The translations under genes were made by a program, and so were the position numbers. From contig CM037588.1 of the NCBI GenBank assembly GCA_021018995.1, positions 88,076,765 to 88,140,764 of the forward strand: 64,000 nucleotides of DNA. Reading direction: 5' to 3'. The first letter of the stretch is position 1. Each line of letters opens with the position of its first letter. Source of the stretch: Chloranthus sessilifolius. Lineage: Eukaryota; Streptophyta; Magnoliopsida; Chloranthales; Chloranthaceae. This document shows, piece after piece, positions 2,663 to 63,926 of the stretch. The notes beneath the pieces were generated by a model. It was not told the DNA's origin and did no database searches. It saw only the letters and a list, made by a program, of their open reading frames with translations.

Positions 2663-2828
2663 GGCGTATATGTTATGCACGCCCGACCAAAAAAGGGCAG
2701 ATTTAGCTGGGCGTATATATTATATACGCTTAGCTTAAATCTGGGGATTTTGGTTAGGCGTATATATTTTATATGCCTGGCTATTTTATGGGGATTTTGA
2801 CTGGGCGTATATATTATATACGCCTAGC
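2663..2828 (-). repeat. Four palindromes at 47-bp spacing in Tat-1 leader
   Basis: Four inverted-repeat units sit at about 2663, 2710, 2757 and 2803. The best unit has arms GGCGTATATA and TATATACGCC around one T. The unit nearest gag is degenerate. The cluster lies about 840 bp downstream of the primer site; the Tat-2 leader has four units at the same place with a different arm sequence. Confidence 0.85.
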
Positions 2829-3668
2829 AAAAACAGCTCTGTCAGTTAATTTTGACAGTGAACAGCAAGCCCAAAAATGGGTCTTTGAACTAGTTTCCTT
2901 GGAGGAATACTCCCGAGGACAGCTGTGTATGTTATCGGGTCCCTCCTTTCCGTTTCCTAGGGATACACGGTTGTATTCGGGCTGTCTACGCTCTCACCAA
3001 TGCAGGTTTTACGGCTTTATCGGAATTGGCAACCCAACCGATATACCTCCGGCGCAAGTGCCTTCTCAAGTACACGAAGGGGTGGTTCTTTTCAGGATAA
3101 TCACCACTAGGGCTGCCGCCTTACTGGGAACCGGGTAAGTTATATCGTGCCTAAACCCCTCAAAAAACTACCCAAAATATGCAAAAATAGATTTGATTAT
3201 GTCCCCACACTGTTGGTTCACTTTTAATTACATATTTTTTTTTTAAAGGGGAGTGAATTTAAGTCTAAAATCGGGCCGGGGATGACAAGCCCATGCCGCC
3301 TCAACGGGCCGGCGTTCAATGGTGAGATATGATGACTGCAATAAAGAGTGCATGTAGGCCCGCCAAATGACTAAGGCTCGTAAATGACTAAAATTTAAAT
3401 GACGTGGAAAGTAGATGCGAGCAGGCCCGCCAAACAGCTAAGGTGGCTTAAATGACAAAACCGTAAAAAACTAAAATTTAAAAGCGCAAGTAGGCCCACC
3501 AATCGGCTAAGGCACTTAAAGGACTGAATCGTAGGGGTGAGTATGTTAGTAAAAACAACAAAAAATAATGAAAAAAATAGTAGAAAATTAGAACGAAAAA
3601 ACAGCCATGGTTAGTAAAAAATAAAAATAAAGAGAAAGGCCAACAAGAGGAGAAGCGCTAGGGTGACA
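2829..3668 (-). other. Tat-1 leader between primer site and palindromes
   Basis: This is non-coding. It aligns piecewise with the Tat-2 leader (16853-17680): the block around 3060-3140 contains the same CAGCCC(C)TAGTGGTGAT and GGCRCTTGCGCC segments, and 3260-3300 matches the GGCCCG...CCCCGG block of Tat-2. Short reading frames here are not conserved and look accidental. Confidence 0.7.
3345..3525 (-). repeat. Triplicated 65-70 bp leader repeat of Tat-1
   Basis: Three copies of a block with core GTAGGCCCGCCAA...GCTAAGG (plus strand) start near 3351, 3416 and 3486. Tat-2 has the same core, also in three copies, at 17000-17165. Both sets lie shortly downstream of the primer site. Confidence 0.75.
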
Positions 3669-3670
3669 TC

Positions 3671-3686
3671 CCTAGCAGAGTCGCCA
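3671..3686 (-). other. Primer binding site of Tat-1
   Basis: On the minus strand TGGCGACTCTGCTAGG begins 4 bases after the LTR end at 3691. It starts with the TGG expected of a site pairing with a tRNA CCA end, and Tat-2 carries almost the same sequence at the matching place. I did not assign the tRNA. Confidence 0.75.
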
Positions 3687-4424
3687 TCTGTGTGAGCATG
3701 GATCCTCTCGAACCCGTCACGGCGATGCACTCGCGATGGAATAAAATGTAGAGTCGCCACCCGGAGCTTTTGGTGACCCAGGAAACCTTTAAATCGATAT
3801 TTTGAACACCGAACTGCTAAATATGACTTTGATTTACCGGTCTTTCCCAAAGGCTCTAGGGTAGGGGCTTCGGTTATTGATCGGGAACGGTTTAGGCACC
3901 CGATCAACCCGCATGTAGCGGTCTCTATCTATGGCCAAAAATAAAAAATAAATGGGCGGAGCTTCCCCTTGTCGAAAGGCAATGCCGTCCTATCAAGCTT
4001 TGAGCCAAACCGAAATTTCGGCGGCATAACGGCTTGAATCCTTGGACGGAGGAAACACCAAGAAGGTAGAGGAAGAGAGGGGTGAGCTAGAGCTCATGGG
4101 CTTTTGTTGCACCATGGAGGACCTTCACTTCGGCTTGCTTCCGATGGCTTTGAATTGCTTAAACGGTAGAAGAATCGGTTTCTAATGCTAGGATTCGATA
4201 GATAGGAAGTGTAGGATGAAACTAGGGACTAAGCTTTGACTAAAAGGGGTGATCTAATGGTTAAAAAGGATTTAAAAAAATGATCTATGCATGCTAGAAT
4301 TCTGGTTGAAAATATAAAAAAAGAACTTTCTCTCACTAGGGCTCTCTCTCTCCTAACTCAAGCTTTCACCCTAATCTTTTCAACCTTGATTTTTTTCAAC
4401 CCTTTTGGGAAGAGGGGGATCTCT

Positions 4425-4434
4425 CTATTTATAG
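4425..4434 (-). promoter_or_regulatory. LTR TATA box of Tat-1
   Basis: CTATAAATAG on the minus strand, followed by a GA-rich start region. It lies about 280 bp downstream of the nearest LTR palindrome. Tat-2 has the same TATAAATAG at the same distance from its palindromes. Confidence 0.7.
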
Positions 4435-4712
4435 AGAAGAGGTGGGTTAGAGGGTTACTTAAGAGCTAATTGGTTTAGCAATTAGGTAATTCTCTATCTA
4501 AGGTTTTCTAGGTTTTTTGGGTTCTAGAGGTTTGGGAAATTAGTTTCAATGGCGGATGATGGGGTGGGACCATGGGTGACTTGAGGTTTGCCAATAAGCT
4601 CAAAGGGGGTGCAACCAATCTCAAGACACCCACCTTAACCAAGGGGATGGTCAAAGGGTCAAACCAGATGAAGGAAATTCGAGCATTTAATGACAGATAC
4701 TATAGCTAAGTT

Positions 4713-4931
4713 GGGTGTATATATTACATACGTCCAGATTAAGCACAGTAAAAATCCAAAAAAACAGGGGGAATCTGAGAAGATGGGTGCCCGTGTTGGT
4801 GGCCACCTATGCTGGGCGTATGTATTATATACGTCCGACCAAATTTGGCCCAAAAATGCCGGGTGTATATAATATATTCGCCTGACCAATCTGGGGCCAA
4901 ATTGGCTGGGTGTATGTAATACATACGCCTG
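4713..4931 (-). repeat. Palindrome cluster in Tat-1 LTR
   Basis: Units at about 4713, 4814, 4861 and 4908 share the arm form GGGYGTATRTA / TAYATACGYCC. Spacing is 47 bp between three of them and about 101 bp (two periods) for the fourth, so one unit seems to be missing near 4764. It is the same motif as in the Tat-1 leader and lies upstream of the LTR TATA box. Confidence 0.85.
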
Positions 4932-5252
4932 AGCAAAAGTTATCATTTTATGTGAAACTTCAAGCGGCCATAACTTTTTTATCACAACTCCAAATTGGGT
5001 GATCTTGGACTCGTTGAAAAGCTGGAGAAGTCCCCTTTCCAATGATATGTGGCTCATCCTCAGAAGTCATATATATAAAAATTTGTAGCTCTCCTCCCAT
5101 CAAATGCTCAGAAGGGTTTAAATTCAGTTTGTGAAGGGATCCTAGGGTTTTAGGTGATTCCTAAAGGTCTGGATAGATTTCCAAGGGTTCAGGGGTGCAT
5201 TTCTCCTGGAGTACAGACTGATCGGGCCTTGGGCCGAATTTCGGTGTCTACA

Positions 5253-6964: not shown

Positions 6965-7395
6965 GACCTGTCGAGAGGTTAGAAGTGTAATTCGACAGGT
7001 AATGAAGTTGCACCTTGTGGAATTTGACAAGTATTGAGACCTGTCGATAGGATGTACCTAGTTTTCGATAGGTACTAAAGGTGATTGCTGCAATTTTGAC
7101 AAGTTCTGTGTACCTGTCAAGAGGTTGAGAAACCTCTCGTAACCTTAATCGCTGAAAAAAAACTGTTCCTGTCGAGAGGTTCGCCAAACCTCTCGAATTG
7201 AAATTTCTGAAGCATATATACATGTCGAGAGGTTTGATGAACCTCTCGAAACCTTCAGCCTGAGAGTTTGCATTTTCAAGTAATTTTAACTATTCGACAA
7301 GTTGATTCAACCTATCGAAATCTTCTTTACATCCTGTCAAAATAGTGTTTTGCTTGCTTTAAACCCATTGATAGGTTTAGTTTATCCATTCGACA
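6965..7395 (+). repeat. CGAGAGGTT motif cluster upstream of Athila-C ORF3
   Basis: At least ten copies of a CCTGTCGAGAGGTT-like motif occur here in both orientations, several as inverted pairs (TCGAGAGGTT...AACCTCTCGA). The same motif fills part of the Athila-C LTR (12857-13345). The rest of the spacer between integrase and ORF3 (6714-6964 and 7396-7724) shows nothing else recognisable. Confidence 0.8.
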
Positions 7396-12420: not shown

Positions 12421-12460
12421 ACTTGTTTTTAATCTTTCCTTTGCTTATGGACTAGCAAAT

Positions 12461-12474: not shown

Positions 12475-14252
12475 TGTATTAATCAGTGAAAAATACTATT
12501 TTTCACTTCCTAACCTGACCTTTGATGGACCTTTGAGTTGACTAATCATGTGTCTTAAGTGTGTTTTGTAGATAGAAATAAATTGCAGTCATAGTACAGA
12601 AATCCATCAAAAAATGCTAAGAAGATACCTGCTACTTCAACATGTGCACTTACAGCCCAAGCAATCAGTCATCAAGCAGATCCACAAAGCCTCAAAATTT
12701 TATGGCAATGTCATGTGTCCAACTGTGTACACACGGGAGCAAACTAGCAGCTGTATTTGATGAAGAAAGAACCCCTTAAAAGGGCACTGAGTGCTGGACA
12801 GATGAAAGACATCACCCCAAGCTGTGTACAAGCTGTGGAAGCAAAGGAAGTAACATGTCGAGAGGTTAAATCAACCTATCGAGAGCTGTAGGTACTGAAT
12901 GGAAGCTATCGAGAGGTGCTATCATCCTATCAAGAGGTTCTGAGGAGGAGAAATGATGTTGTCGAGAGGTTTACAGAACCTATTGAATGGTTTAAACTAC
13001 AGCAAAAGAACCTGTCGAACAATGCAAAAGATCCTTTCAAGAAGTCACCTGAAGCAGCCATCCTCGCGAAGTGCAGAAGGCTGAAAATGAACATGTCGAG
13101 AAGTTCCCAGAACCTATCGAACAGTCAAAGCCAACCTGTAGAAGACATACCTGAAGCTGCATGAAATCTCGCGAGGTTGCATCAACATGTCGAGAGGATG
13201 CCTGAAGCTAGCACAACAGTTAGGCATTGAATTCATCCTGTCAAGTAGTTTAATAGAACCTGTTGAAAGTTAAATTCAACTTGTCAAATGGAGCATAAAA
13301 TAGACTCAAATCATGTTGAGAGGTTCTCTGAACCTCTCGAAGCACAATTTGGGAACTTCTCAGTTCCAACTGAGAATGCACATCAAGTCTGTAACTTGTT
13401 GCACAAATCCCAAGGCTGTTTAGGTGTTTTGGAGGTATTTTTTGAAATGTAAATGAGCACAAATGTGAACTCTCTAACCACCTCTCATAGACTTATCCAA
13501 TTCAAACCAATTGGTGGGTGATTCTAGAAGCAAAATCATCCACATCAGCAGCTCAGAATAACAAAATTATTTCCTTGAGCTCTGATTGGCTGAAATAGAT
13601 CTGAAATAGAAGGGAAGAGTATAAATGGAGAGGAAGTATTACATAAGAACCATCCAGAGAGAGAACCATGGTTGGCTAAATACTTGTAGTAGCTAGGGTT
13701 AGGTAGATATTTAAATTGATAGGTTGAGAGCTTGTATGAGGATTGGATAATGCACAGACTGTAAATCTGAGAACAATGTATTGTAAGTTGTTTGGATTCA
13801 ATAAATTGTTGATTTTAAAGTTCAATTAAATCTATAGATCTTATGGTTCCATTAGATTCTCAATCGAATTTATGTATTTGGGACATGACCATTCATTTAA
13901 CCTTTAGATCTCTTGATTGCCATCTGATTTTCCTAGATTTAATATCCCTGTCGATGCTTGAGCTTGTAGCCTTTCATCCACAACATTTACAGTAATTTTT
14001 CTATTCTAATTGAGGCCTTTGGATTGGAGGAAATCCCTAGGATGATCTGTGACCATTGAAGTGGACAAATCAAAGCCTTAAGATTAATTCAATCCTCTGG
14101 TTTAGATTGGATTTTTCTACCTAATCTATGCTTGTAGCCAGATGAAGGATTGTTGCAAATCAATCCTCTGCATTGTTGTTTAACCAATTAATTTTTAGTG
14201 AGACCAAAATCCCAAGCTGCTATTCTCCACCTTTGATTTTAGTTTCCCAAAA
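12475..14252 (+). repeat. 3' LTR of Athila-C, truncated by Tat-2
   Basis: It starts TGTATTAATCAGTG and follows the same course as the Athila-A LTR (CCTAACC...TTGATRGACC, GTAGA.A.AATAAA). It continues to 14252, inside the segment homologous to CTCCACCTTTTGAGTTT of Athila-A, where Tat-2 begins. A TATA box TATAAAT sits at 13620-13626. The remaining part of the LTR should lie beyond the far end of Tat-2, outside the window. Confidence 0.82.
12857..13345 (+). repeat. CGAGAGGTT motif cluster in Athila-C LTR
   Basis: More than a dozen copies of (C)TRTCGAGAGGTT and its complement occur here, often in inverted pairs, with variants where GAG has become AAG or TTG. The cluster lies about 275 bp upstream of the LTR TATA box. 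It is the same motif as in the internal cluster at 6965-7395. Confidence 0.8.
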
Positions 14253-14999: not shown

Positions 15000-15406
15000 A
15001 GTACCTCCACTGGAATGTACCTCCAGTGGCCCGATCGAAATACCTTTCGAGAGAGGTACAATTTTGAGCTTTTGATGGCATATATGGAACCCTTAGGAAT
15101 CACCCCAAAACCCTCAGGAATCACCCTAGATCCCTTAGAAGCCTATCCCGAACCTTTAGAAACCAATCTCGACCCTTAGAATCTATTTTTAACCCTAAAC
15201 CTAACCTTACCAGGCTATGGATAAAGAGTGGTGCATCAAAACTGGCTACGGTCCTCTACTGTGATCGAGTCTTATACCGTTGCAAAGTCGAGATCATCAA
15301 CTTTTCAATGGTCGAAGAATCGCACCCATCGGAGGTATATGTCAAAAGATATGGCAAACCGAGCTTAGAGGACATGAATGTAAAGTCATGTGGGCCCCTT
15401 TGGGAC

Positions 15407-15827
15407 TTGGCGCAACTAATAGTTGCGCTAGTATTAAACTTTTCCTGGCGCAACTATTATTATGTGGGCCCCTTAGGGACTTGGCACAACTAATAGTTGC
15501 GCCAGTATTAAACTTTGCCCGGACTTGGCACAACTAATAGTTGCGCCAGTATTAAACTTTGCCTGGTGCAACTAATAGTTGCGCCAGGCCAATTTTCCCT
15601 TATTTTAAGCCTGGCGCAACTAATAGTTACGCCAGATTCAAAAGTGGGCCCCACCCTCACGAGCTAACTTCTAGGCCCTGTACATACTTTTTTACTGTAC
15701 ATTTGCATGGCGCAACTAATAGTTGCGCCAGATTCAAAAGTGGGCCCCATCCTCGCGAGCTAATTTCAAGGCACTGTACATACTGTTTTACTGTACATTT
15801 GCCTGGCACAACTAATAGTTACGCCAG
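15407..15827 (+). repeat. Palindrome cluster in Tat-2 LTR
   Basis: Seven clear units (15407, 15481, 15525, 15563, 15611, 15707, 15803) and one degenerate unit (15444) are present. The ideal form has arms CTGGCGCAACTA and TAGTTGCGCCAG around a single central A. Later units are 48 or 96 bp apart, earlier ones about 37-44. The cluster ends about 280 bp upstream of the TATA box. Confidence 0.9.
15611..15802. repeat. 96-bp tandem duplication carrying the palindrome
   Basis: Two units (15611-15706 and 15707-15802) each hold one palindrome followed by GATTCAAAAGTGGGCCCCA and a CTGTACATAC...ACTGTACA segment. They differ at a few bases. This shows how palindrome number can grow by unit duplication. 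Confidence 0.85.
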
Positions 15828-16109
15828 GCATATGAACAGTAATTATTATATTTTGCCCTAAATTTTGTGTTTGGGGTTTGACTTGTTGACCACCTTGAGC
15901 TTTGGGGTATGTTTTGATAGATCTGTTGCACCCTTTTGAAGCCTATTTGCACCCCTTTTAGTGGCTTAAGGCCTCACCACATTATCTACCATTGGAGGAC
16001 CTTCTCACACATTTGAAGGCTCCAAACAACTTAGGAAACCGTAGATGTTAGATTACCTAATTCTTAACCATGCTTAGCATCTAAACACCCTCCTAATCCA
16101 CCCATTTCC

Positions 16110-16118
16110 TATAAATAG
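16110..16118 (+). promoter_or_regulatory. LTR TATA box of Tat-2
   Basis: TATAAATAG followed by a C-rich start region. The position relative to the palindromes matches Tat-1 within a few bases. Confidence 0.75.
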
Positions 16119-16836
16119 AGCCCCCCTCCCCTTGGTTTAAGGGTTGAGAATTTTGCTTAAGAGAGAAAGAGCTCCAAGTGAAAAGTTCTTCCTCCCTTTG
16201 GTGCACTATTTTTACCTAAAATCCAGAATTCAAAAACCCTTCCCAAGCGTGCTCTTACACCCAAAACCCTTAGCCTAGGTGTGTGTGATCCCCTAGCCTC
16301 TCTTCTCCATCTCTTAGCTAGTAGGCCTTAGTGGTTAGAACTCCTTTTTGCACCATTTAAGCCTCCAAAAGCTCATCAAAAGCAAGTCACACAAGGCTCC
16401 TCTACGGTGCTACAAGGGCCCGAGGGCTCCGGCTCTCCCCTTTCTTCTCCTATCTCCTTTTGCTCTCCCTACCCTCTCATTTTGTGCCGTTACGAATTTT
16501 TGTTAGGAATGGAGGGGCACAAATAGGATTGGAGGCCCATTTGGGCAAGAGGGAACCATTTTCTTTTCCTTTACTTCATTCTATTTTTGGCCATTAGTAG
16601 AGATCGCGTTAAGCGGGTTGATCGGGTGCTTAACACTTTTTCGATCGATAGCCGAAGCCCCTACCCAAGAGCCTTTGATGTGGACCATATTCAGAGTCAT
16701 ATTTTTAGCAATTAGGTGCTCATAAAAATGAACTAGGTATCCCGGGACACCGAAAGCTCTGGGTGGTGTCTCTATATTTTTTGTTAGAGAGCGCATTGTT
16801 GCGACGAGATCGTCTCGATTCCCACGGTTGCATAGA

Positions 16837-17681: not shown

Positions 17682-17849
17682 CTGGCGCATGTATTAGTTG
17701 CGCCAACCCAAAAACTTGGAAATTATAACTGGCGCATATATAAGTTGCGCCAGCTTTAAAGTCCATTTTTTTTACCTTGGCGTAACTAATAGTTGCGCCA
17801 GTGTAAAAAGGCTCCCCTGCAACCTGGGCGCAAGTATTAGTTGCGCCAA
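17682..17849 (+). repeat. Four palindromes at 47-48 bp spacing in Tat-2 leader
   Basis: Units start at 17682, 17729, 17777 and 17825, with arms like CTGGCGCA and TGCGCCAG and variable centres. They lie about 830 bp downstream of the primer site. Number, spacing and position equal those in the Tat-1 leader, while the inner arm sequence differs. Confidence 0.88.
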
Positions 17850-39473: not shown

Positions 39474-39491
39474 TCCCCGGCAACGGCGCCA
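39474..39491 (-). other. Primer binding site of Athila-A
   Basis: TGGCGCCGTTGCCGGGGA on the minus strand, the canonical Athila site for tRNA-Asp, six bases from the LTR end. Confidence 0.92.
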
Positions 39492-39497
39492 AAAACT

Positions 39498-41644: not shown

Positions 41645-42628
41645 GAGGGCAGCCGAACTGATGCAACACTCGAAATGGGAAGTAAAAGGTGTTGCTCGTC
41701 AATCCTAGGAGGGTGATGCCCTCGTGATCTCTACTATGAATTATCGAGAAGGTCCGGTCCAGCCAAGGGAGCCTCCGTGTCAGCTCGGCATCAATCAACC
41801 AAAGTTTCAGAGTTGACATATCGCCCTGGGGGAGCAGATGGTATCGACCCAGAAAACGTTGGACCACCTCACCTAGGGCAATATAAAAGTGGGGCACGGG
41901 CCCCAAAATAGCAAAATGTTCACCCAACCAGACCTGAAGCAACAAGGGGCATCCCCGAAGGCCCTCCACCTTACCCAAAGCAAAGGAATCAAGGCATCGA
42001 TACAGCTCGGCAAGCACTACATGCATCATGGACCGGCCTGCCTCCAGCTCCGCCAAAATATCACATACTGCCAAGGAAAAGCTCTCCCCCCAGTGAAGAA
42101 ACGAATTTCAGAGATGAGACTGAGTGCTAGGGCTTTCACATTAAAAACATTTCTAACTGGTAATTTTTGGAGGCTTTCATCACCAAAAAGTTCTTTGAGG
42201 AATTTTAGCGAACACCTTGTGGGCCCCCCAATGAGACTTTTCTCATACTCAGATTTCTTCAAACCGAGAGTAAGATGAACGGATTTGGAATAACCTGGCC
42301 GCAGCATGACTCTTGCAAGGCCCCTGTGAAGCTTCAAGCCAGACAGATTAGATAGCTCCTCAAGGGTTGGGGTTAGCTCCCGCTTCCCAAAACGAAATAT
42401 GTGGAGATTCACATCCCAAAATGAAGCGGCGGCATGAGGAAGTTCCCACTGAAGGGGAACCTTCAGAAAGGAAGGAAGGCGAGATAGCCCAAGGTGCTCC
42501 AAGTCGACGAGCTCACTCTCATTCAAGCTTCCAAACCAGGCCATTAAAAATTTGGGCCCCAAACACAACAAGGGCGGCAAATTGACTCCGGGCCCTCCGC
42601 ATAATGGAGGGCTGGAAAGCGGGTCCAT
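41645..42628 (-). pseudogene. Antisense gene 1 of Tat-2 (DUF7745-like), 5' part
   Basis: Starts at ATG 42628 (MDPLSSPPLCGG). The order of motifs (AASFWDVNLHIFRFG, ELTPTLEELSNLSGL, LKFLKELFGDE, then LAVCDILAELEAG, LAELYRCLDSFALGKVEG, GCPLLLQVWLGEHFAILG, LTRRLPWLDRTFS) fits the DUF7745 / plant mobile domain-like proteins often found with plant retroelements. Their biochemical role is unknown. A one-base slip in a G run near 42087 moves the frame. No intron is needed to read it. It lies opposite to pol, has its own TATA-like box at 42752-42760, and has palindromes directly upstream. Athila-A broke it at 41645. Confidence 0.75.
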
Positions 42629-42751: not shown

Positions 42752-42760
42752 GTATATAAA
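42752..42760 (-). promoter_or_regulatory. TATA-like box of antisense gene 1
   Basis: TTTATATAC on the minus strand, 24 bp downstream of the nearest palindrome and about 125 bp upstream of the ATG. The plus strand reads TATATAAAG here, so the opposite direction is also possible. Confidence 0.5.
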
Positions 42761-42783
42761 GACCCATTGCCCCCAGGTTAAAC

Positions 42784-42935
42784 CTGGTGCAACTAATAGT
42801 TGCACCAGTGCATTTCGGCCCCCTGTCTTGCCTGGCACAACTAATAGTTACGCCAGCACAAATTTGTCCCTTTTCTTGCCTGGTGCAACTACTAGTTGAG
42901 CCAGCACAAATCAGCCGAGTTTTGACATGGCGCAA
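42784..42935 (-). repeat. Palindrome cluster upstream of antisense gene 1
   Basis: Units start at 42784, 42832, 42880 and 42927, exactly 47-48 bp apart. The first is a perfect palindrome with arms CTGGTGCAACTA and TAGTTGCACCAG. The fourth is cut near its centre by Athila-B and resumes at 59653. The motif is that of the Tat-2 LTR and leader. Confidence 0.9.
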
Positions 42936-50936: not shown

Positions 50937-51279
50937 TAGGAAAGTATTAAACAAAGAGCATGTGCTCTTCAATCTGCCATTTTGATTTGTATTGTGGCTG
51001 GATCCTAGGCATAGCTCACCACCAGGGGTACCCCTAGACACATTAAAATAAAACATTCAAGCATAGACAACAAAAATCATCATCAAACATTGTGCATTCA
51101 AGTAAAAACCATCAATTCAAGAGCGGTAATCATCAAACCAAGCATAAAGATAAACCAGACCAGACAGATGCATACTCAAGGGAGGCGACTAAATTTTCCT
51201 CTAAAATTTGAACAAAAGAAAGCAATACAAATATAACAGAACCAAAGTACATATGATACAATATTGACACACCTGTGGA

Positions 51280-52402: not shown

Positions 52403-53164
52403 TCACTTTCTGGAACACAGTTTCGAAATGATTTGGTCTGCACAATACTTGTATAAGCAAGGTACCTCCCAGAAAAAGAATTTGACCTGTGAGAAAAACA
52501 AGTCTTTGTCTAGTTTTATCCAATGGGCAGAAATCTTACCTATAAGTAGATAATTTACAATGTGTGCATACCAAGGAACCAAGGATTGGATGGCAAACAA
52601 TTGCTCATCGGGGAAAACATCATTTGTAGGATCATCAACACATTTTTCCAACACAATTCTGGACAAGTAGTCAGCCACCACATTTTCCACAACCTTTTTT
52701 TCCTTGATTTCAATGTCAAACTCCTGTAACAGGAGTATCCATCTAATTAGCCTGGGCTTAGCGTCTTTCTTGGACAATAGGTACTTCAATTGTGAGTGGT
52801 CTGTGAAGATTATAGTTTTAGACCCAAGTAGGTAAGGTCTAAGTTTGCCCACAGCAAAGACCACTGCCAGAAGCTCTATCTCAGTTGTGGTGTAATTCAG
52901 TTGAGCTTCGGCAAGTGATTTGCTGAGATAGGTAATGACCACTGGCAGCTTATCTTTCCTTTGGCCCAAAACAACACCTATTGCCAAAGTGGATGCATCA
53001 CACATCAGCTCAAAGGGGAGTGCATAGTCAGGTGTTTGGAGTATAGGGACAGAGGTGAGGCATATCTTCATAGTTTCAAAAGCCTCAAGACATTCAGCAG
53101 AAAAATCAAAGGGCACATCCTGGCAGAGCAGGTGGCACAATGGTTTAGTAATTTTGCTGAAGTC
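52403..53164 (-). pseudogene. Athila-B RNase H and connector
   Basis: Open from 53140 to 52403. [20 protein letters not shown] (Asp), [15 protein letters not shown] (Glu), [14 protein letters not shown] (Asp) are the catalytic blocks; [18 protein letters not shown] and VVADYLSR close the domain. The connector [17 protein letters not shown] leads to integrase. The same connector is the right-hand breakpoint of the Athila-C fusion. Confidence 0.9.
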
Positions 53165-54481
53165 TTATATGAACCTCATGTAGAATCTTGCATGTCCAAG
53201 GAAAGATCTGATTTGTTTGACTGTTCTTGGAGGGGACAAACTTATAATGAGGTCAACTTTGGACTTATCTACCTTAATCCCTTCTTTAGAGACTACATAG
53301 CCCAACACAATACCTTGTGTTACTATGAAGTGGCTCTTTTCCGAACTTAAGACTAGATTGGTCTCCTCACATCTTTGCAAGACCGGGTGGAGGTGTTGCT
53401 GACATTGGACAAAACTATCCCCATATACAGAAAAATCATCCATAAAAATTTCCAAGAACTTGCCAATCATATCAGAGAATATGGCATACATACACCTCTG
53501 AAAGGTAGTTGGGGCATTACACAACCCAAAAGGCATCCTTCGGTAAGCAAAGGTGCCAAAAGGACAAGTAAATGTAGTTTTCTCCCAATCATGAGGGTGC
53601 ATAGGGATCTGGTTGTACCCTGAGTACCCATCATGAAAACAGTAAAAAGCTTTTCTAGCCAACTTATCCAAAATTTGATCAATGAATGGGAGAGGGAAGT
53701 GGTCTTTTCTGGTTCTAGAGTTGAGCTTTCGATAATCTATGCAAACCCTCCAGCCAGTGGTCTCCCTGGCTGGTTTCAACTCTCCAGACTCAGTTGTAAC
53801 AACTGATATGCCAGATTTCTTAGGCACCACTTGGATAGGTGCCACCCATTTAGAATCAGAAATGGAGTAAATTACCCCAGCATCTAGTAATTTAATGATT
53901 TCTTTGAGGACCACTTCCTGCATGTGAGGCTTTAATTTCCTCTGCATTTCCCTAGAGGGTGTTGAGCCCTCCTCTAAATGGATCTTGTGCATACAGATTG
54001 ATGCATCTATCCCTCCTAGATCTCCAATGGTCCAGCCAATTGCCTTTTTGTGCTTCCTCAAGAATGTTAGTAATTCTTCCTCTTACTCATTGGTAAGAGA
54101 GGAGGAGATAATTACAGGAAGTTTTTCACCTTTCTCAAGGAAGGCATATTTCAATGTTTCTGAAAGCTTCTTGAGATCTAGATCAGGGGCTTGTTGGGTG
54201 AATGGCAGGATTGGTGCTTTGTTGGTTGGAGGAAGAGGCAGCAATGTAGGTTTCCAAATGGAATGCTGCACTAAGCCCACAAAAGACCTCAATGTGGTCA
54301 TGTGTTCTGGCATAACAGCTGGGCTTCCTTCCTCTACCATGTCCCAAACTTCAATTAAGCTTGTGACAATATTGCCCCACTCCAGAAGAGTGGGCAATTC
54401 TTCTTCAACAACTTCCTCTAGTACATCCACTGCAAAGCTTTCCTCATTGTCCAGCTGAGGGTACTTTACATTGTTGCACAC
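53165..54481 (-). pseudogene. Athila-B reverse transcriptase
   Basis: The frame is continuous with gag and RNase H apart from TAA at 54083 and at 53165. RT blocks VAPIQVVPKKSGI, WRVCIDYRKLNSRTRKDHFP, CFHDGYSGYNQIPMHP, FGTFAYRRMPFGLCNAPTTF and the catalytic box FMDDFSVYG are intact, then LGYVVSKEGIKVD and IRSFLGHARFYMRFI. The two Asp of the box are kept, unlike in Tat-2. The segment 54481-54083 is the acidic connector before RT. Confidence 0.92.
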
Positions 54482-55129
54482 ATATTAAGTTCAACCTTCA
54501 TATGTCCGAAAGTTACCTCCATGATCCCTGACCTGCACTAAATCCAAGCATTGGCAGTGGCCAAGAATGACCTGCCCAAAATAACAGGTATAGGGGTTGT
54601 ACTCTTGTTGCAGCCCATGTCCAAAACAAGGAAGTCTGCAGGGTAGAAGAACTTGTCCACCCCTACTAAGACATCCTCAACCACTCCCATAGGTCTCCTT
54701 TCAGACACATACCATTAACAAAGACAATGGGGTGGGTTTTAGCTCCCCAAAACCTAGCTGCTGATACACACTACATGGCAGCAGGTTTACACTGGCTCTA
54801 AGGTCTAGAAGGGACCTTCCAATTGTGTGGTCTCTAATTATGCAAGGGATAGTGGGTATCTCTGGGTCATGCAACTTCTCTGGCATTGTCATGTTTAATA
54901 CAAAATTAACTATATCAGTTACAAAGACCTTTTTGGACAAATGGCCTCTAGCTTTTCTTTTCTGGGTACAAAGGTCTTTTAGAAATTTGGCATAGGTTGG
55001 GACATGTCTAATTGCATCAAGCAAGGGCAAATTGATTTTTGCCTGCTTAAAGGTCTCCATCATTTCCTCTATCTGTGCATTCCCCTTACCAAAAGGGCCA
55101 GGGCCACTCAAAGCTTGAAGAAATGGCAA
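54482..55129 (-). pseudogene. Athila-B protease region
   Basis: GPFGKGNAQIEEMMETFKQA, VPTYAKFLKDLCTQKRKARG and PGIPTIPCII-like segments lead to the active-site region, which reads LLDLRASVNLLPCSVYQQL. The Gly after DL is Arg, which should disable the enzyme. A frameshift follows after 54701. Confidence 0.82.
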
Positions 55130-56911
55130 CTGAGGTAATGCTGGTTCCTCAACTGCAAGCCTATGACTAAACTTTTATTTTTTTCTTTTTTCATCTTTTA
55201 TTTTCTACTGAGGCTCAACTACAGCCTCTTTATTTTTCCCCTGTTGTAGGGTAGTAGGCAACTCTTGGCTCTGTGGTCTAACAAATTCTTTTTCACTTTC
55301 ATTTAAAAAGTCTTTGGAAATGACCTCTCCTTGTTCCTTCCCAACCTGGTTGTCTACCAGCCTGCTAGACCTTAGGGTTGTGATAGCATTAGCTCCCTCG
55401 AAACTTGAGGAACCCTCTCCAATCGAATATTGGCCCTTAGGGTTGGCCACTGGCTGGCTTGGCAACCTACTCTCTTCTCTTTTGGCCAAGGATTGGATAT
55501 TTGGTCTAGCTGCTCTTCCATTTTCTTTATGCTTTGACTGTGAGAAGTCACAGTCTGAGTCAAGATTCAAAAGCTTTGCAATGAGGTCAAAACCTGATCC
55601 TCGAAAGAAGCATTTCAGGGCTGAGGTGGGGGAACTACTAACTGATTTTACTATTGGGGCAGCTGCTGATGCTAGAAATTTGACCTTGGGGCATATCCCT
55701 GGTTAAATTGCTGCTATGGCCTTTGAGGTAAGGCCAACATCTGTTGTGACTGCATGTAATTGTCTTGTCTCCACCTCAAATTTGGGTGGCCTCTCCACTG
55801 GTAACCAGGATTTTTGTGCTGGTATCCAAATGGCTATTTGTTGTAGCCAACAGATTATTGCTGGCCAAATGATTGGGCAGCAGCAGCTTATTCCATCACA
55901 TACTCAGGATATTGCCCTGTAGATGGGCACTCTTCCACTGTGTTGTAGAGATTGGCATATCAAACATGCCTCCATCACCTGTGCAGCCAATCTGGGTTGC
56001 ACCACAGTTAAGAGTTTATCAAACTTATCAGAAAGATTGGCCATCTGCATTTTCAGGTCATTATTCCCAGTTACTTCATACATCTTTCCTTTGGAAGTTT
56101 CAGCAAGTCCCATTTTAGAAGAAGGCTCTTGAACAGTTCTTGACAAGGACATCTTTTGAAAAGCATTTTCACTGATGACCTCGAACAAGTCCCATGCCTC
56201 ATCAGCTGTTTTGTGCATGTAAGTTCCACCACAAGAGGCATCCACCATGTCTTTGCTTTTCTCATCAATCCTATTATAGAAGCTCTGGACAAGCTGCCAA
56301 TCAGGGATCTTGTGGTTGGGACATTGTTTGAGCATCTCCTTGAATCTGTCCCATGCTTGATTAAAATCCTCAATTGGAGATTGGGCAAAAGCAAATATTG
56401 CTTTCCTAAACTAGCTGGTTTTTATCTCTGGGAAGAATTTTGTCAAAAATCTTGTCTGGAGGTCTTTCTAAGAAGTGATGCTGTTGTTTGAGAGAGTAGC
56501 TAACCAGGTGTTGGTCCTGTCCTTTAGGGAGAAAGGAAAGAGCCTTAATCTAGTGGCTTCTAGTCCCAAACCAGCAATAGAGAATGTTGTGCACAGGGCT
56601 AAGAATTGGTCAATGTGCTAGTAAGGGTCTTCCTTGCTGAGCCCATGGAAAGAGGGAAGCATTTGGATGATTGAGGTTTTAATGTCATTATTTCCCTGGA
56701 CATCTGGGAATTGAATGCTGAATGGGGAATTATAATCATCAGGAGCATTCAATTCCTTCAATGTCTTGGGTTGCTCTTCACCCATGACTGCTATCTCAGT
56801 TTCAGTAAGGGGGCCAATTGTGGTGTGTCTGGGCCTTCTTGGTCTTCTGCCCCTTTCTATCTCAGGGTTAGGAGGCTCTAATGTGGGACTGAGGGATCTC
56901 CTTCCTAGCAT
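55130..56911 (-). pseudogene. gag: Athila-B gag
   Basis: Starts at MLGRRSLSPTLEPPNPEIER (ATG 56911), homologous to the Athila-A start. Core segments LKELNAPDDYNSPFSIQFPD, GLSKEDPY, SLKDRTNTWL and KIPDWQLVQSFYNRIDEKSK are clear. The zinc knuckle starts CLICQSLQHS and is broken by a frameshift at about 55940; the frame is recovered by 55570. Several single stops (after EDPY and later). The stretch 56912-57214 is a short leader. Confidence 0.85.
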
Positions 56912-57214
56912 GCACACACACAACCAGCAGGGAAAACTACTTGCAGACACATTGCATTTAACAAATTTACAACTATCCTAATCAACTGCTATGGAATTTT
57001 CAAAGGAGAAATAGACTGAGTTTTTTTTTTAGGGTTAGAGAAGTGCAAACAGAGGTAGCAAGACTCCCAGTGCAGTTCAACATTCCTTCTCTGCTACTGT
57101 CCAGATCTGCAAGAAAAATTCCAAATGTAAATTAGCAATATCAATTATTCACAAGCACAACTACCAAAGAATAAAAAATATATAAAAATGTAGGGTCTAC
57201 TAATAGATCAAGAC

Positions 57215-57232
57215 TCCCCGACAGCGGCGCCA
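57215..57232 (-). other. Primer binding site of Athila-B
   Basis: TGGCGCCGCTGTCGGGGA on the minus strand; two differences from the canonical tRNA-Asp site of Athila-A. Confidence 0.88.
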
Positions 57233-57238
57233 AAAACT

Positions 57239-59652
57239 TGTTACGATATTTTAGATGCTTACTACTAACTTTATTGGAAACAGTGATAAGAATGTGTTAG
57301 TGAGACTGAATCAGAGGTGGATTGAAAATTGTAGAGCAGCAAGTCTACAAATACATAGACCTGTAAGATACAAGGCCTGTTATAGCAAGTTTTAATAAGT
57401 AGCAGTTTGTCCCACAGGGAAAATTGATCTAAAGCTCCAAGGCATCCATCTGTAGTAGGCCCTCCTGATCTGACTACAGATCTGGCAATTCTAAATGGAA
57501 GGGGATTTAAGGTCACTAATATTCAAATCTTAAGGTAACCTAATGCCTAAACTACATAAATTGTTAAGAAGAATGATGGAGTGTGAGAAAATAAATATAA
57601 AAGGGTGAGAAGTAAGCTATTAGGTACAGATCTGATGGGTCTTATAACTCAGACTCAGATCTGCTGCTATAGAAATCCTATCCAATGGCTACATTATCAT
57701 CAAAGAGGAGAAAGGATCCAACTCACCCTTGTGCCATGAACCAATCGCTTATGGCTATAACCTGTCCACTTAAATGGTCACAGACTATCTAAGAGGGGAA
57801 CCACAATCCAGAGATGGGTCAGAACAAGTTTATCATTGTAGGCACTACTTCATCCAGGCTACCAAATCAAGAATTCATAGGAACCTCAACCTCTAAAGTT
57901 ATGTGTGTGGGGCTCGGCCTGCAATGTGCACTGGCCTAGACACACAGAACCAGCAAGAGTTTGAGTACTAGCTTTTAGGCCTAGCTGTTCACTGCTTTAG
58001 AAAGACAGCAATGATCCAGTCACAAGCCTACAATCTCTATAGCTAGATCAGATCTGCCATCTGATGGTGGGTCTACACAGATACAGGGGAGTCTGTCTCT
58101 GCACAATCTCTCAAAAGGCTACATGCACAAGTGCAGAGAAGAAGAATCTGTCTTATATCTGTGGATTGGCCTCACCCTAGGGCTATAACCTATCCACTTG
58201 AATGGTCACAAACTATCCACAGAGGCTATCCTCCTCACAAAGGTCTGAGGTAGAACAAGAAGATTACTGCCACCACCATGTTCACAAGGCAACCAGCACA
58301 GGCTCCCATGGGGATTCAGATTTAGTGGATCCTGTGGTGGGGCATAGGCCTGCAATGTGCCTAACCTGGACACACAGGGTACTTGAATCTAAATAAATCC
58401 TTTAAAAAGAATCCTCCATTGCTTACAATGCAACATAGCAATGGAGGATCTCACGGCAGCAGCCTTGTACAGAACAACCCTCAAAATTCAATCCCATACA
58501 TGTATAAGATCCTATTATAAAATTCCATTAAAACTATTCCAAATAATCATACAAAGGTATAGCCAGCAAGTGCTAGACTACAGAGAGAAGAAAAGGGAAA
58601 AAGAAGCTGCCTAAACCCTAACCATAGCCTATTAGAATTCTACAACTGATTCAAAAAGGAGTACAGAAGTCCCCTAAACCTAAACTAGGCTTAGGCTTAT
58701 ATAGCAGTCAGCTGTGGGAGCATTAGGGTTAGGAAAACCATAATTTTATTCATGCAATCATGGCTCATTTATGTTCCTTGAATGCCTCGAGGTGTGTGCA
58801 CGGAGATTTGAGCATTAGAGTGCGTGCCCTAGTTGCTAGAAGTTCCTAGATTGCCCCTGCAGAAGTGGGGGAAAGTTAAGATCCTAAGCCTCGCTAAGTA
58901 GCAAGGATTTCCTGGTCTTGTCACGTGATAGAATTGGCGTCACGGGGTTGAATTGACTTGAAGTTCTTGTAGTCACTGGATAGATGGTTTGGTAATCGCG
59001 GGATTATGCTTTCCATTTGAATGGCGCGGGAATCGTGCGCGCAGTACATTCCTTTGTGAATCTCGCAGAGATCCTTGTGAAGAAGCAATGTGCATAGGCG
59101 TCTGGATCGCTCGAGCAGTTCCTTGAAGATCTGTATCCCACGGCCACTGTGCGGTAGCTGCGCGCAGGAATGCCTGGAGCTCTCTCTCTTCAGTGAATCG
59201 CGCGAAGATTAAAAGCTCCTTTCTTGAGCTGCGCGAGAGCTTATGACTGATCCTCGCAAGAACTACGTGAAGTCTACTTTCTGGGCTCTTCTATCATTCA
59301 TCTGCGCGAGAACAGTGCGAGCAGTTGGTCTGTTGCCTTTAGAAACCCGCGACAACTGTGCGAACCCTTTTTCTCTGAAAGAATTTAACCCTGCGACATC
59401 TATGCGAGGCTCACTTCTTGGCATTTTTCTGCTTTGTTGTGCCTATGCTGCAGCCAATTCTCTATCTGGGTCCAACCTCCTTTCTCCTGAGGAACTTTTG
59501 GGGCAAACGTAAGCTTCTTGGCATGGTTAGGGCCTTATCTGCAGCTGCTGCTTATTACCTGTAAAATGGGCTTAACCACATTTATTAAATGACTAAGGGT
59601 CTAACAGAGATTAAGTTAAGGGGTGAAAAGTGATACTTTTCAGGTCTTAACA
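57239..59652 (-). repeat. 5' LTR of Athila-B
   Basis: About 2.41 kb, TGTTACGATATTTTAG to ...GGTCTTAACA (plus strand), homologous throughout to 42936-45365. TATA box near 58698-58705. Confidence 0.92.
58995..59400 (-). repeat. GCGCGAG motif cluster in Athila-B 5' LTR
   Basis: Counterpart of 44575-45115 with the same series of TCGCGC / GCGCGAG units; some copies have lost a CpG (for example TCGCTCGAG). Confidence 0.8.
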
Positions 59653-59672
59653 CGCAACTAATAGTTGCGCCA
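59653..59672 (-). repeat. Second half of the palindrome split by Athila-B
   Basis: CGCAACTAATAGTTGCGCCA begins with the target duplication CGCAA and completes the unit started at 42927. Confidence 0.9.
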
Positions 59673-60051: not shown

Positions 60052-62511
60052 CTATTCCTGGTTGGAGCCCTTCGACTTCTTATGACGACGAGAAGAACTC
60101 TGGAAAGTCAGCATGTCCCCCACCCTAGACCACGCCTGCAAGATCCTGCTAAGCAAGGAGCACGATTCCTTAGAACGAGCACGCTGCAAAGCACAAACCC
60201 AAGTCAGGAGTCAGGATCAGTTAAAGGGCAAATGATGATTAAAATGAATAAAGAGGAATAGAACAGCAAGGCACTCACCGTCTCGACCTCCCTGAGCTCC
60301 GCCAGATGATGATGGTATGCCGTATACTTCATGGCCAAGTTGAAGTCCTAGATTTATAACAATGCAATATCAAAGGTCAGGACGGCCCTAAAAGCATGTG
60401 TAGAAGGAAAAACTAAAATGAAAGGAAGTTGGGCCATCAAAGGACTTGCCCCTGGGACCACCTCAGGAAGAGGAACGTGAGCCACTTCGGCAGAGAGTCG
60501 TGCCTGTCTATCTACATCAGTGTAGAGGCTCAAGAGGAAGCTATCATCAAGGCGCTGAAAGGTCCAATAGACTACAGAGGGATCACCAACAGGGATACCA
60601 GCGTGAGAAGTCTCCGACCGACCAGCACCCGACGAGCCCTCACCTGAGGGACCCGCACCAGAGGGATCCACCCCTGACATATCAGCCGCACTAGGTTCGC
60701 CTTCACCATCCGAATCATCCCCTAGGGTGAACTGTGAACAAGATAAAGATCCACTTATAGGGGGCAAAAGCCAAATTAAAGTAGAAAGGGAACTAATCCA
60801 AGATAGGACAAATTACCTGACCAAGCAGGCCGCCAAATGCTAGAAAATTGGTGTTGGGAACAAAGTGCGGCAGAATGAACCGATGGGGCAAGCACTCGTA
60901 CTAAAGGTGATAGTCCCCGGGCATGTGAAGGGCATGAAATGGAAGCCCATTATTGAAGAAGGCCGCTGTGAGCTCCTCGATACTACCGACAGGATACCAG
61001 ACATCCGCCGGAGGGTCCACAGGTATGGCATAATGGCCCTAACACTGGTGCACCAGTTGCTCTCCCAAGTAATAAAATTTAGCCCCAGCTCCGTAAAAGA
61101 ACACAACGCGGCGATTATTGAATAAGCGAGAGGCACTTATACCTGCTCGGTCCCAGAAGGGGGAGGCAAGGTACGGATCAGGGAGGATCTGCTCAAGTAA
61201 AAAAAAAAGGAGAGAAACCAAGCAAACAACACCTCAGTCAAAGAAAATTTCCAAGCCAAAAATGAACAAAGGTTAAGAAAAGAGAGGAGATTTGTTACCT
61301 ACTCAGGGACCATCAAATCAAGTTTGGACCGTAGGCCCATTTCCAGGTGCTTTAGGCCCATGCCACGACGTCAGGCCTGATGCCAGTTGCTGAGAAGAGG
61401 ATAGGTGAGCACCTCTGAGAAAAGGAGCGGTCGCTCGGGGTGGAAGTGGTGGTATCCCCATACCTAAAGAGACAGCACATAAAGGCAGGTCAATGGCACA
61501 TAAAAGTCATGCAAAAAAAATAATGTGTGTGTGTTGACAAGGGCAAAGAAATGCAGAATTACCTCCAGGGCGGCCCAAAACCCCACGGCAGACTTCGAGT
61601 CCCCGGTCGTAACCCGAGACAAATTATACATCAACCACGCATACCCTGCTCCTCCCTAGTCATGCCTAGGGACGTCACCCTAATTATCCATCACGCTCAA
61701 TAGGGCCAAGCTGACTTGGCCCCCGCTGGCATTTGTAAAGAGGGTCTTGCCCAGCAGGAGTAGGAGCGTGATGCGAGCTAAGATGGTCGCCCGCTCTGGT
61801 GTGATGTAGAGCACCCTATCTGGCTGACCCAAGTCCAGCAACTCATCAGTAGAAAGAAGGGAGGTCAGCCAAGACTTCTTGACCTCTGTGCCATGGTTCT
61901 GCCCGTGAGGAGGATACGCCCCAATCAGTCGAATAATGTCCTCCCAGCTCGGTACCGCCAGATCAGATATCGTTATCCCCCCAATCCTGATACCGGTAAT
62001 CATGGCCCAATCGACGGGCGTCAACATCATCTCAGCGTACGACATGTGGAATGTCATGGTCTCAGGGTGAAACCTCTCAATCAGGGCCTTCAAATATGCG
62101 ACGTCGACCCTCATAGCGGGACAAGACAGGAACTCCCCAAAGCCCACATGCTCCAACAAAACCTTCACCACGGGGAGGACATAGAGGTAAAACTCATGGA
62201 AGTCGAGCCACCCCCCGCGGAACACAATATTGGGCAGGTCCTGCACCCAGAGAAAATGCACATCAGATCAAAGAAGCAAAAAAGGAGAGAGTGCATAATG
62301 GAAATAAATTGAACCTTTCACTTACCTTGCCCACTATCCCAAAGTTTGAAATGTGAGTATGCTGCTGGTGAAGGAGGCCAACCCGGGCGACCTCACCCTG
62401 CATCTCGAGCCATGGGCCCGCTCTCCGTTCCACCCAGACACACTCCTCCCCCCGCAGGCCACGAATGATCTCGGGTCCCTCCTCGGGAATGTGCTCATCA
62501 CCACCTGACAT
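60052..62511 (-). pseudogene. Antisense gene 2 of Tat-2: eight-exon plant mobile domain (PMD) gene
   Basis: Coding exons on the minus strand are 62511-62326, 62240-61563, 61463-61299, 61188-60817, 60731-60450, 60347-60279 and 60183-60052, about 628 codons. All introns are 85-110 bp and phase 0; six have GT/AG borders (donors such as GTAAGTG) and intron 60449-60348 has a GC donor (GCAAGT). The PMD core is clear: GWLDFHEFYLYVLPVVKVLL, RFHPETMTFHMSYAEMMLTP, DWAMITGIRIG, YAWLMYNLSRV and GFWAALE joined to VWGYHHF. PMD proteins (MAIL1 relatives, retroelement-borne copies) act in plant nuclei on gene and transposon silencing; their biochemistry is unknown. The C-terminus is acidic, then basic (SSRRHKKSKGS). 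Several TAG or TGA codons interrupt exons 3-5, mostly explicable as CAG or CGA originally. The start MSGGD was chosen because it follows a good splice acceptor (62513). Confidence 0.8.
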
Positions 62512-63770
62512 ACTGAGGCAACAAAAGGCAACCACATCTGGTCAAGTACAAAGATACATGTGCAACGAGCTCTTTCAAAAAAAAACAACAAAACGAAAAA
62601 AAAATAATAATAATAATAATAAATGCCTTTGTTTTACATCCAGACAAACGAAAAAAAAAAAGCGTTGTTTCTTCATGTTCACTAAAAAGGAAAAGGGCCC
62701 TTCTTTATGTTTGCTGAAACAAAAAAAGGAGAGGGCCCCTTTTCCTTGCTTTCGAAAATAGAACAAAATGCAAAACACCAAAAAAAAAAAAAGATCTCTT
62801 CCCTGTTAATGAAAAAAAAAAGAGAAAACGAATCTCCTTTTTTTATGTATAAAAAAAAAGGAGCCAAAGTTAAGAAAAAAAAAACAACAAAAACAAAAAA
62901 AACATACAAAAAGAGAGAGCCTTTTTTTCCTTTTTAAGCTCCTAAAATCGGAACCCAAAACAAAAAAAATAAGAAAAAAGGTCCCTTTATGTTAGAAAAA
63001 CCAGAAAGGACGGGGGGACCCTTCCATCATACCCATAAAATAAAAAAAAAAGAGAGAAGGAGAGGGCCAGTACGAAAAATAAGGTAGACGGTTATAATAA
63101 ATCAATATCTTAGTTTAGTTTTCAAACAAAAAAACAAAAAAAAAAATCCCTTTCCTTAAGAGAAACCAGAAATCTTTTCCCTTAATTAAATCATTAGTTC
63201 CTTAATTAATTTTCAAAAAAAAAATAAAAAACCAAAAATCCCCTTTCTCCTAGTTAATGTCCAAAAAATCATCAAAAATACCCAAAATCCTTGCTTTGTG
63301 TGCAAAATAAAAGCAAAAACCAAAAACAAGAAGAAAATCCCTTTCTTATAAAATAAAAAAAAAAAGGGAAGAGAGAATGTGTAAATATATATATTTAGGC
63401 ATCAACAAAAAATCCATAAAACAACAAAAAGAGGGCATTATTCAAAAAAAAAAGCATCAACACATCATCAATAAATATATTCACAACAAAAAATAAACCA
63501 TTATTCATCTAATAATACAGGATCATGATGATATTTACAAGGAAAAGCAAGAAAGATAAAAAAATAGAAAAAAAGAGAAGAGGAGAGATTTTTTTATTAC
63601 CTTATAGAAAAATAGGGGTCTTTGATCTAGCGTGAGCCGGCGATCGATCCACAAGCAAAAGCAACGGCAATGGGGCACGCGTAGAGGCAATGTAAAGGAG
63701 CCCTAGGAGGTAGACAGTTTTCAGTTTCAAAGAGGAAGAGGGGGGGAAATTCGAAATGATGCCCCACAGC
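62512..63770 (-). other. 5' untranslated exon and first intron of antisense gene 2
   Basis: A donor TATAAG/GTAATA at 63601/63600 and an acceptor TTGCCTCAG at 62513 define an intron of about 1.09 kb. It is strongly T-rich on the minus strand, as plant introns are, with an (AAT)n run near 62602-62624 on the plus strand. The untranslated exon would run from about 63750 to 63601. The A-rich small reading frames in this interval are composition artefacts. Confidence 0.62.
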
Positions 63771-63783
63771 CTGAGTTCGAGCT

Positions 63784-63793
63784 GTTTAAATCC
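63784..63793 (-). promoter_or_regulatory. TATA-like box of antisense gene 2
   Basis: GGATTTAAAC on the minus strand lies about 13 bp downstream of the nearest palindrome. It is a weak TATA match; its placement copies gene 1. Confidence 0.42.
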
Positions 63794-63805
63794 CCCTAGC
63801 CAAAC

Positions 63806-63926
63806 CTGGTGCAACTAATAGTTGCACCAGGGAAATGTTTGCCCTCCTTTTGCTTGGTGCAACTATTAGTTGCGCCAGGCTATTTTAAGGCCCATAGTGG
63901 CCTGGCGGAACTAATAGTTGCGCCAG
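63806..63926 (-). repeat. Palindrome cluster upstream of antisense gene 2
   Basis: Three units at 63806, 63854 and 63902, exactly 48 bp apart. The first is perfect, with arms CTGGTGCAACTA and TAGTTGCACCAG, the same as the first unit of gene 1. A CCTGGT half-unit at the next expected place (about 63949) may be a decayed fourth. Confidence 0.9.

Follow-up and report, generated by a model that had tools for sequence, protein, structure and literature searches.

The window and its elements

The window analysed here is a stretch of 64,000 nucleotides of the genome of Chloranthus sessilifolius (C5:88076765-88140764; the genome searched comprises 2.17 Gb in 32 contigs). It harbours two long terminal repeat (LTR) retrotransposons, Tat-1 on the minus strand and Tat-2 on the plus strand, with further Athila-type elements nested in and between them. 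The names Tat-1 and Tat-2 come from an earlier note on this DNA, and 'Athila' and 'leader' are working labels; none of these lineages is phylogeny-based. That note described six clusters of palindromes at every putative promoter of the Tat elements and took them for binding sites of a dimeric, element-specific regulator. We added flanks of 20 kb on the left and 15 kb on the right, with which both LTRs of each Tat element are visible. Alignment of the LTR pieces shows paired LTRs for Tat-1 and Tat-2. Sense-strand open reading frames (ORFs) of Tat-2 match PF03732, PF17917 and PF17919 above cut-off (gag and RNase H domains); its RVT_1 piece scores below its own cut-off. The LTRs and the two antisense genes of Tat-2 are as follows.

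3689..5252, minus strand: 5' LTR of Tat-1 as aligned; its partner, left of the window, is 89.6% identical
15028..16835, plus strand: 5' LTR of Tat-2 as aligned, in two pieces (paired-LTR alignment)
65630-67131 in window numbering, outside the window: partner LTR of Tat-2, 88.5% and 90.5% identical to the 5' LTR pieces
42026..42628, minus strand: antisense gene 1, first open piece, DUF7745-like, below cut-off; this copy is broken
41645..42074, minus strand: antisense gene 1, second open piece, PMD-like, below cut-off, cut by the element Athila A
61680..62261, minus strand: PMD exon of antisense gene 2, which matches PF10536 at 46.8 bits (cut-off 34.9)

Palindrome arrays at the locus

All six clusters were found where the earlier note had placed them. 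They consist of palindromes 21-25 bp long and centred on a single base, several of them imperfect, with up to three mismatches to the word of their family (F1 for Tat-2, F2 for Tat-1; see below). The flanks revealed three more clusters of Tat-1.

2663..2824, minus strand: Tat-1 leader array, four F2 palindromes starting at 2663, 2710, 2757 and 2804 (pitch 47, 47 and 47 bp)
4714..4929, minus strand: Tat-1 5' LTR array, four F2 palindromes starting at 4714, 4815, 4862 and 4909 (spacings 101, 47 and 47 bp)
15409..15825, plus strand: Tat-2 5' LTR array, seven F1 palindromes starting at 15409, 15483, 15527, 15565, 15613, 15709 and 15805 (spacings 74, 44, 38, 48, 96 and 96 bp)
17684..17847, plus strand: Tat-2 leader array, four F1-type palindromes starting at 17684, 17731, 17779 and 17827 (pitch 47, 48 and 48 bp), some with unlike half-sites
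42786..42935, minus strand: promoter array of antisense gene 1, F1 palindromes at 42786, 42834 and 42882 (pitch 48 and 48 bp) and the first part of a fourth
59653..59671, minus strand: remainder of the fourth gene-1 palindrome (site 59658-59671), beyond the insertion of the element Athila B
42753..42758, minus strand: TATATA of antisense gene 1, 48 bp past the start of the last palindrome
63808..63924, minus strand: promoter array of antisense gene 2, F1 palindromes at 63808, 63856 and 63904 (pitch 48 and 48 bp)
63785..63790, minus strand: TATA-like box of antisense gene 2 (TTTAAA), 38 bp past the start of the last palindrome
-16797 to -16602 in window numbering, outside the window: Tat-1 3' LTR cluster
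Sites -14246 and -14198, outside the window: Tat-1 gene-2 cluster, about 1.3 kb before the PMD exon
Sites -10361 and -10314, outside the window: Tat-1 gene-1 cluster, 0.2 kb before the ATG

The three additional Tat-1 clusters occupy the positions where the hypothesis of an element-specific regulator would put them. The distance of about 280 bp that had been claimed between the LTR clusters and TATA also holds, as the arrays end 284 bp (Tat-2) and 280 bp (Tat-1) before TATAAATAGAG, which is located at 16110 in Tat-2. Both antisense arrays are followed by the TATA-like boxes that had been proposed. In addition, a TATA-like GATATAAATG comes after the Tat-1 leader array in the sense direction, and such a box was also seen by eye after the leader array of two loci of a third family (L125 and L127).

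Arrays in relatives and in the genome

We examined relatives picked without reference to the palindromes. Twenty gene-1 relatives picked by protein, spread along a list of 150 matches, all carry sites upstream (two to four each), as opposed to none of 400 shuffled sequences and none of 22 tiles from the gene-1 body. Among 20 further gene-1 copies picked with the Pfam DUF7745 profile (of 117 matches, mostly near the top of the list), 19 pass the strict rule, and the remaining one has a single degenerate palindrome. For gene 2, the best 30 of 150 listed matches, window copy included, gave sites in 29 (28 and the window copy); one locus, L044, was scored neither present nor absent. For gene 2 of Tat-1, stretches of 400 bp from 20 of 150 listed matches have a site in 13 cases. 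The sites are thus a trait of the element family.

The genome has 9336 places (4663 + 4673) with the Tat-2 21-mer in its form with a central A, and none with the reversed word. The Tat-1 word has 8531 places and the F5 word 720, both with reversed controls of 0; the set GCGYASNTANTANSTRCGC, mostly the Tat-3 word among the matches listed, has 555 with a reversed control of 6. Together, the four counted words make up 19,142 exact places. For the Tat-2 word, the 30 places at the head of the list are all on contig C1; they make up 23 arrays within Tat-2-like elements: 15 in LTRs, four in leaders, two at gene 1 and two at gene 2. Thus, sites picked by motif fall in the LTR, the leader and both antisense promoters, in agreement with the claim that one motif is common to the sites within an element. 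The contexts of these places were read by hand, as were the labels F1-F7 and the TATA offsets given below for gene 2, Tat-1 gene 2 and Pfam-picked gene 1. A scan of IMG/VR for palindrome arrays returned 0 stretches.

Past the Tat-2 LTR array, at 15877-15891, lies a TTTGACTTGTTGACC stretch with TTGAC words, which is found at the same place in most of 15 LTR rows (copies among L001-L030). We take these words to be W-box-like.

The palindrome scan gave 45 merged matches in the window, many of which belong to neither Tat motif, compared with 7, 12, 12, 7 and 20 in five order-2 Markov controls of the window. A rule combining frame and symmetry found no site in any of 132 tiles taken from the window outside the arrays. 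A chance origin of the palindromes was rejected on the basis of the genome counts with their reversed controls and the Markov, shuffled and tile controls.

Pitch and TATA register

We determined spacings between neighbouring sites in 20 gene-1, 26 gene-2, 20 Tat-1 gene-2, 15 LTR and four leader stretches. Most of them (101/132) are of 47-48 bp, and nine, all in LTRs, are of 37-38 bp, about one helical turn shorter. The Pfam-picked gene-1 set is yet more regular, with 28 of 30 spacings of 47-48 bp, the others being one of 37 and one of 49 bp. The register of the array frequently runs on to a TATA-like box at the antisense genes. At gene 1, TATATA begins 48-49 bp past the start of the last site in 13 of the 20 protein-picked copies, and a TATA-like word lies at 46-49 bp in 13 of the 20 Pfam-picked ones, among F1, F2, F4, F5, F6 and F7-like sites. 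At gene 2, TTTAAA is found at 36-38 bp in 16 of 28 copies, and at gene 2 of Tat-1 it is found at 38-39 bp in ten of the 13 copies that have a site.

These arrays could be neutral tandem duplications of a 48-bp unit, comparable to the reported sources of satellites in Tat elements. The number of palindromes does vary, from seven in the 5' LTR of Tat-2 to one in its 3' LTR (at 66014, with up to five mismatches), which indicates that arrays expand or shrink, and the spacers retain some similarity. However, palindromes are 87-93% identical, as opposed to 59-83% for spacers within a context and 45-49% between contexts; their symmetry is preserved through changes of motif, and such arrays recur in four contexts, in many cases with a constant distance to TATA. 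We consider neutral duplication extremely improbable.

An alternative is that the palindromes form hairpins in the genomic RNA, for packaging, dimerization or as a source of small RNAs. Most sites do lie within the presumed genomic RNA, and inverted repeats are able to fold. Changes that keep a G-U pair in the element sense (C>T) slightly outnumber those that break pairing (G>A), 96 to 77, in the direction expected of hairpins, but this excess does not reach significance (two-sided binomial p 0.17), and the counts with the sites oriented in another way are 80 and 93. Moreover, a single central base suits a hairpin poorly, and neither pitch nor TATA register has an evident meaning in RNA. A role as RNA hairpins is therefore very unlikely in our view.

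Motif variants and gene-1 clades

About seven variants of the palindrome fit one frame, nGCGYRnnTAnTAnnYRCGCn.

F1: GGCGCAACTAWTAGTTGCGCC, of Tat-2
F2: GGCGTATATAWTATATACGCC, of Tat-1
F3: TGCGTACATASTATGTACGCA, of a third element (gene 1 starting at L033:8773; leaders in L125, L126 and L127)
F4: AGCGTGTATAWTATACACGCT
F5: GGCGCATGTAWTACATGCGCC
F6: TGCGTATATAAAATATACGCA, at one locus, with a looser fit at the centre
F7: GGCGTGTGTAATACACACGCC, at one locus, with a variant of it at another

The variants differ at half-site positions 1 and 5-8, and every change is mirrored in the opposite arm, the centre of F6 excepted. The same motif recurs in several contexts of a family, namely four for F1 and F2, three for F5 and two for F3; thus F5 is found at gene 1 (four Pfam-picked copies), in LTRs (L161 and L163) and in a leader (L162). 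On a DNA tree of 19 gene-1 copies, with the F7 variant entered as F7, the motif labels require seven changes, compared with a mean of 12.4 and a minimum of nine in 2000 shuffles. F4 does not form a single clade there, and support for some of the inner nodes is weak. As judged from this tree, the motif variants follow the gene-1 clades.

Some leader sites of the Tat-2 type combine one F5-like and one F1-like half, which suggests that half-sites are read one by one. Separately, the upstream sequence of one gene-1 copy (L072) resembles, by eye, a gene-2 promoter, which suggests an exchange between arrays.

The variants bear on the idea that host transcription factors bind the palindromes and that the element merely borrows host regulation. 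Plant LTRs frequently carry host sites, and the TTGAC words after the LTR arrays indicate that such sites may well exist here; a site beside TATA is also what a host activator would need. Nevertheless, about seven variants coexist at the same positions in one genome, with differences at defined half-site positions, and a single host factor would not be expected to require a separate site for each family. We therefore regard host factors as unlikely readers of the arrays.

The products of the antisense genes

Both candidate binders are conserved proteins of the PMD superfamily, as judged from profile matches and from the ratio of nonsynonymous to synonymous substitution rates (dN/dS). L122, a natural gene-1 copy with an open frame (429 aa), scores above the cut-offs for both PMD (PF10536, 41.5 bits) and DUF7745 (PF24924, 36.5 bits). 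The Tat-1 gene-2 exon reaches 32.9 bits for PMD, slightly below the cut-off of 34.9. Between F1 and F5, dN/dS of gene 1 is 0.11-0.19 (12 pairs, with a high silent divergence of 0.84-1.43); no value was obtained for four pairs with F2, which are saturated. For gene 2, F1 compared with Tat-1 gives 0.20-0.28 (nine pairs, involving nine of the 30 gene-2 loci). Within F1, the values are 0.16-0.42 for gene 1 and 0.15-0.64 for gene 2. These low ratios indicate that both products are maintained as proteins by purifying selection. The antisense genes found here are the two PMD genes; no survey for further proteins was made in these regions.

A putative element-encoded regulator

We propose that the arrays are operators and that a dimeric protein of the element, most probably one of the PMD products, reads them and thereby controls gag-pol and its own genes. 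We hold this to be somewhat better than an even bet. In each palindrome, a dimer would bind two 10-bp half-sites in inverted orientation, separated by roughly one helical turn. Given the usual distance of 47-48 bp between neighbouring sites, and of 37-38 bp in some LTRs, the dimers would align in a fixed helical register, in which they may contact each other and the TATA complex; symmetry, one-base centre and pitch all point in this direction. The sites occupy the LTR with its gag-pol promoter as well as the leader and the two antisense promoters. The candidate binder is one of the two antisense PMD products, in which case the element would govern both its main transcript and the genes of its own regulator, forming a private regulon. 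Motifs that are private to a family and change together at several sites of an element are suggestive of a protein that travels with the element; when its specificity shifts, the arrays would shift along. As the promoters of the two PMD genes themselves carry sites, a regulatory loop would be the simplest scheme.

The bound protein could also act as a self-limiting repressor of gag-pol and of its own genes. Sites beside TATA on the regulator's own promoters suit autorepression as well as autoactivation. The LTR arrays, in contrast, are far from TATA (280-284 bp) for simple blocking. In the available part of PMC7156037, moreover, the 'DOWN' motif linked to the host PMD proteins MAIN and MAIL1 marks genes that need these proteins for expression. 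Repression by a PMD product thus seems rather unlikely. With respect to the element-encoded regulator, we think that activation or anti-silencing is the more likely sign, because of the analogy with the VANC proteins of Arabidopsis VANDAL elements and because the LTR array lies 280 bp before TATA.

Several observations weigh against such a regulator. No TATA-like box was seen close to the leader array of Tat-2, so that at least this array lacks an evident promoter; the claim that the clusters mark every putative promoter thus holds only in part. The LTR arrays are the least regular, with 11 of 34 spacings of 47-48 bp. Among the protein-picked gene-1 copies, five of 20 have no TATATA and two have it at 96-97 bp; at gene 2, five of 28 copies have a TATA-like word elsewhere within 120 bp, and seven have none in that range. 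Seven of the 20 Tat-1 gene-2 stretches have no site, which they may miss through variable intron length. Spacers in different contexts are 45-49% identical, compared with 27-30% after shuffling; being non-random, they imply that shared descent accounts for part of the pitch. That the motif tracks the gene-1 clade is equally expected from plain descent of whole elements. Finally, a protein database search with gene 1 gave no match at E <= 0.001 among 7997 candidates scored, and the single match of a PDB sequence search (E 0.88) carries no weight.

On balance, what the earlier note observed is confirmed and enlarged by the pitch, the clusters outside the window and the genome-wide extent. Its interpretation is partly supported: the arrays are a family trait, with family-specific motifs that follow the gene-1 clades, as would suit an element-specific dimeric regulator, and the part that fits less well is the Tat-2 leader array, which is not clearly at a promoter. 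As far as the sites and their evolution are concerned, the reading of the arrays as parts of a putative element-specific regulon is well supported.

Athila-type elements

The nested elements have a palindrome family of their own, CGAGAGGTT-5-AACCTCTCG plus a CGATAGG variant, located at LTRs and before an accessory ORF. The word CGAGAGGTTNNNNNAACCTCTCG has 11 matches in the window with up to three mismatches, compared with 0.01 expected. With its five-base centre left free, the 25-bp word occurs at 1960 places in the genome, and the reversed control at 0.

7173-7317, 12859-13339, 30520, 36055, 36243 and 41217: Athila-type palindromes
28890-41644: Athila A insertion, in antisense gene 1; target site duplication (TSD) GAGGG at 28885-28889 and 41645-41649
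34847-35365, element sense: accessory ORF of Athila A, weak match to Transposase_32 (PF20167), below cut-off
42936-59652: Athila B insertion, inside a gene-1 palindrome; TSD CGCAA at 42931-42935 and 59653-59657
49611-50102, element sense: accessory ORF of Athila B, weak match to Transposase_32 (PF20167), below cut-off

In Athila A, variants of the palindrome are found in both LTRs and before the Transposase_32-like ORF. In an element at 5.4-15.0 kb, they are found in an LTR-like stretch (12859-13339; assigned as LTR from alignments), and those at 7173-7317 precede the counterpart, by alignment, of that Transposase_32-like ORF. For Athila B, the scan made revealed no palindrome family common to LTR and accessory gene. 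Athila A, the element at 5.4-15.0 kb and the genome count, and not Athila B, suggest that this family is a parallel case.

The insertion of Athila B split the fourth gene-1 palindrome into 42929-42935 and 59658-59671, with CGCAA as the TSD. The available part of PMC6911290 reports a weak preference for palindromes among LTR retrotransposons including Athila.

More generally, LTR retrotransposons of this plant may represent private regulons. In these, a PMD protein would be a sequence-specific dimeric regulator whose specificity diversified, within one genome, into about seven variants, along with operator arrays in helical phase at the LTR, the leader and its own antisense promoters; a like arrangement, with other proteins and palindromes, may have evolved in Athila. 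This generalization is tentative, somewhat short of an even chance in our estimation.

Comparison with known systems

Antisense genes are known from related settings. Antisense TRP28 genes of Retand have been suggested to play a regulatory role (Vicient 2025, PMC11963269). Their domain is Transposase_28, as opposed to PMD in the Tat elements; in the antisense ORFs scanned here, only PMD and DUF7745 were matched and not Transposase_28 (PF04195), other antisense frames lying outside that scan. The available part of the Retand description mentions no operator palindromes, and the stem 'palindrom' occurs in it only in one reference title, given twice. For maize Grande, a review of additional ORFs (PMC7264820, available portion) describes gene23 as antisense, with a promoter reported upstream and a nuclear product. 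A likeness by domain, not by phylogeny, is seen with Ogre: in the available portion of Neumann 2019 (PMC6317226), 57% of Ogre elements have PMD (pfam10536) in extra ORFs, and the antisense genes of the window likewise encode PMD proteins. That portion gives neither function nor target site for the Ogre PMD ORFs and leaves the function of extra ORFs in plant retrotransposons open.

The host PMD proteins MAIN and MAIL1 are tied to promoters with the 'DOWN' motif, and its direct recognition by them is discussed as possible in the available parts of PMC7156037 and PMC9899485; the former, a paper of 2020, terms PMD a domain of unknown function. These are host genes with a single non-palindromic motif and, in those same parts, no demonstration of direct binding, whereas the Tat elements have element genes and several palindromes. 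Among the best-ranked papers of the open-access PMC literature, we recognized no earlier description of such arrays.

The arrays are concrete candidate target sites with built-in specificity controls, as a single genome contains about seven variants together with their own proteins. Binding of the arrays by PMD products, if true, would explain what the antisense genes do for these elements, and it would make a natural series of specificity changes available. The 19,142 genome places could also bear on host gene regulation.

VANDALs, the carriers of VANC, are DNA transposons, whereas the Tat elements are LTR retrotransposons. In the available parts of PMC5735166 and PMC10398659, VANC is an element-encoded protein that reads short motifs, and motif and protein are proposed to evolve together. 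The Tat arrays share with that system short motifs that are repeated in non-coding regions of the element and differ between related families. The VANC motifs are of 8-9 bp, in contrast with the 21-bp palindromes at fixed pitch of the Tat elements, and the word 'palindrome' is absent from the main texts of both papers. The antisense products, which match PMD and DUF7745 and are encoded by LTR retrotransposons, do not qualify as VANC homologues, an assessment that involves no direct sequence comparison with VANC. The likeness to VANC is a functional analogy only; if PMD products bind the arrays, VANC-like element-private regulation would have been found in LTR retrotransposons.

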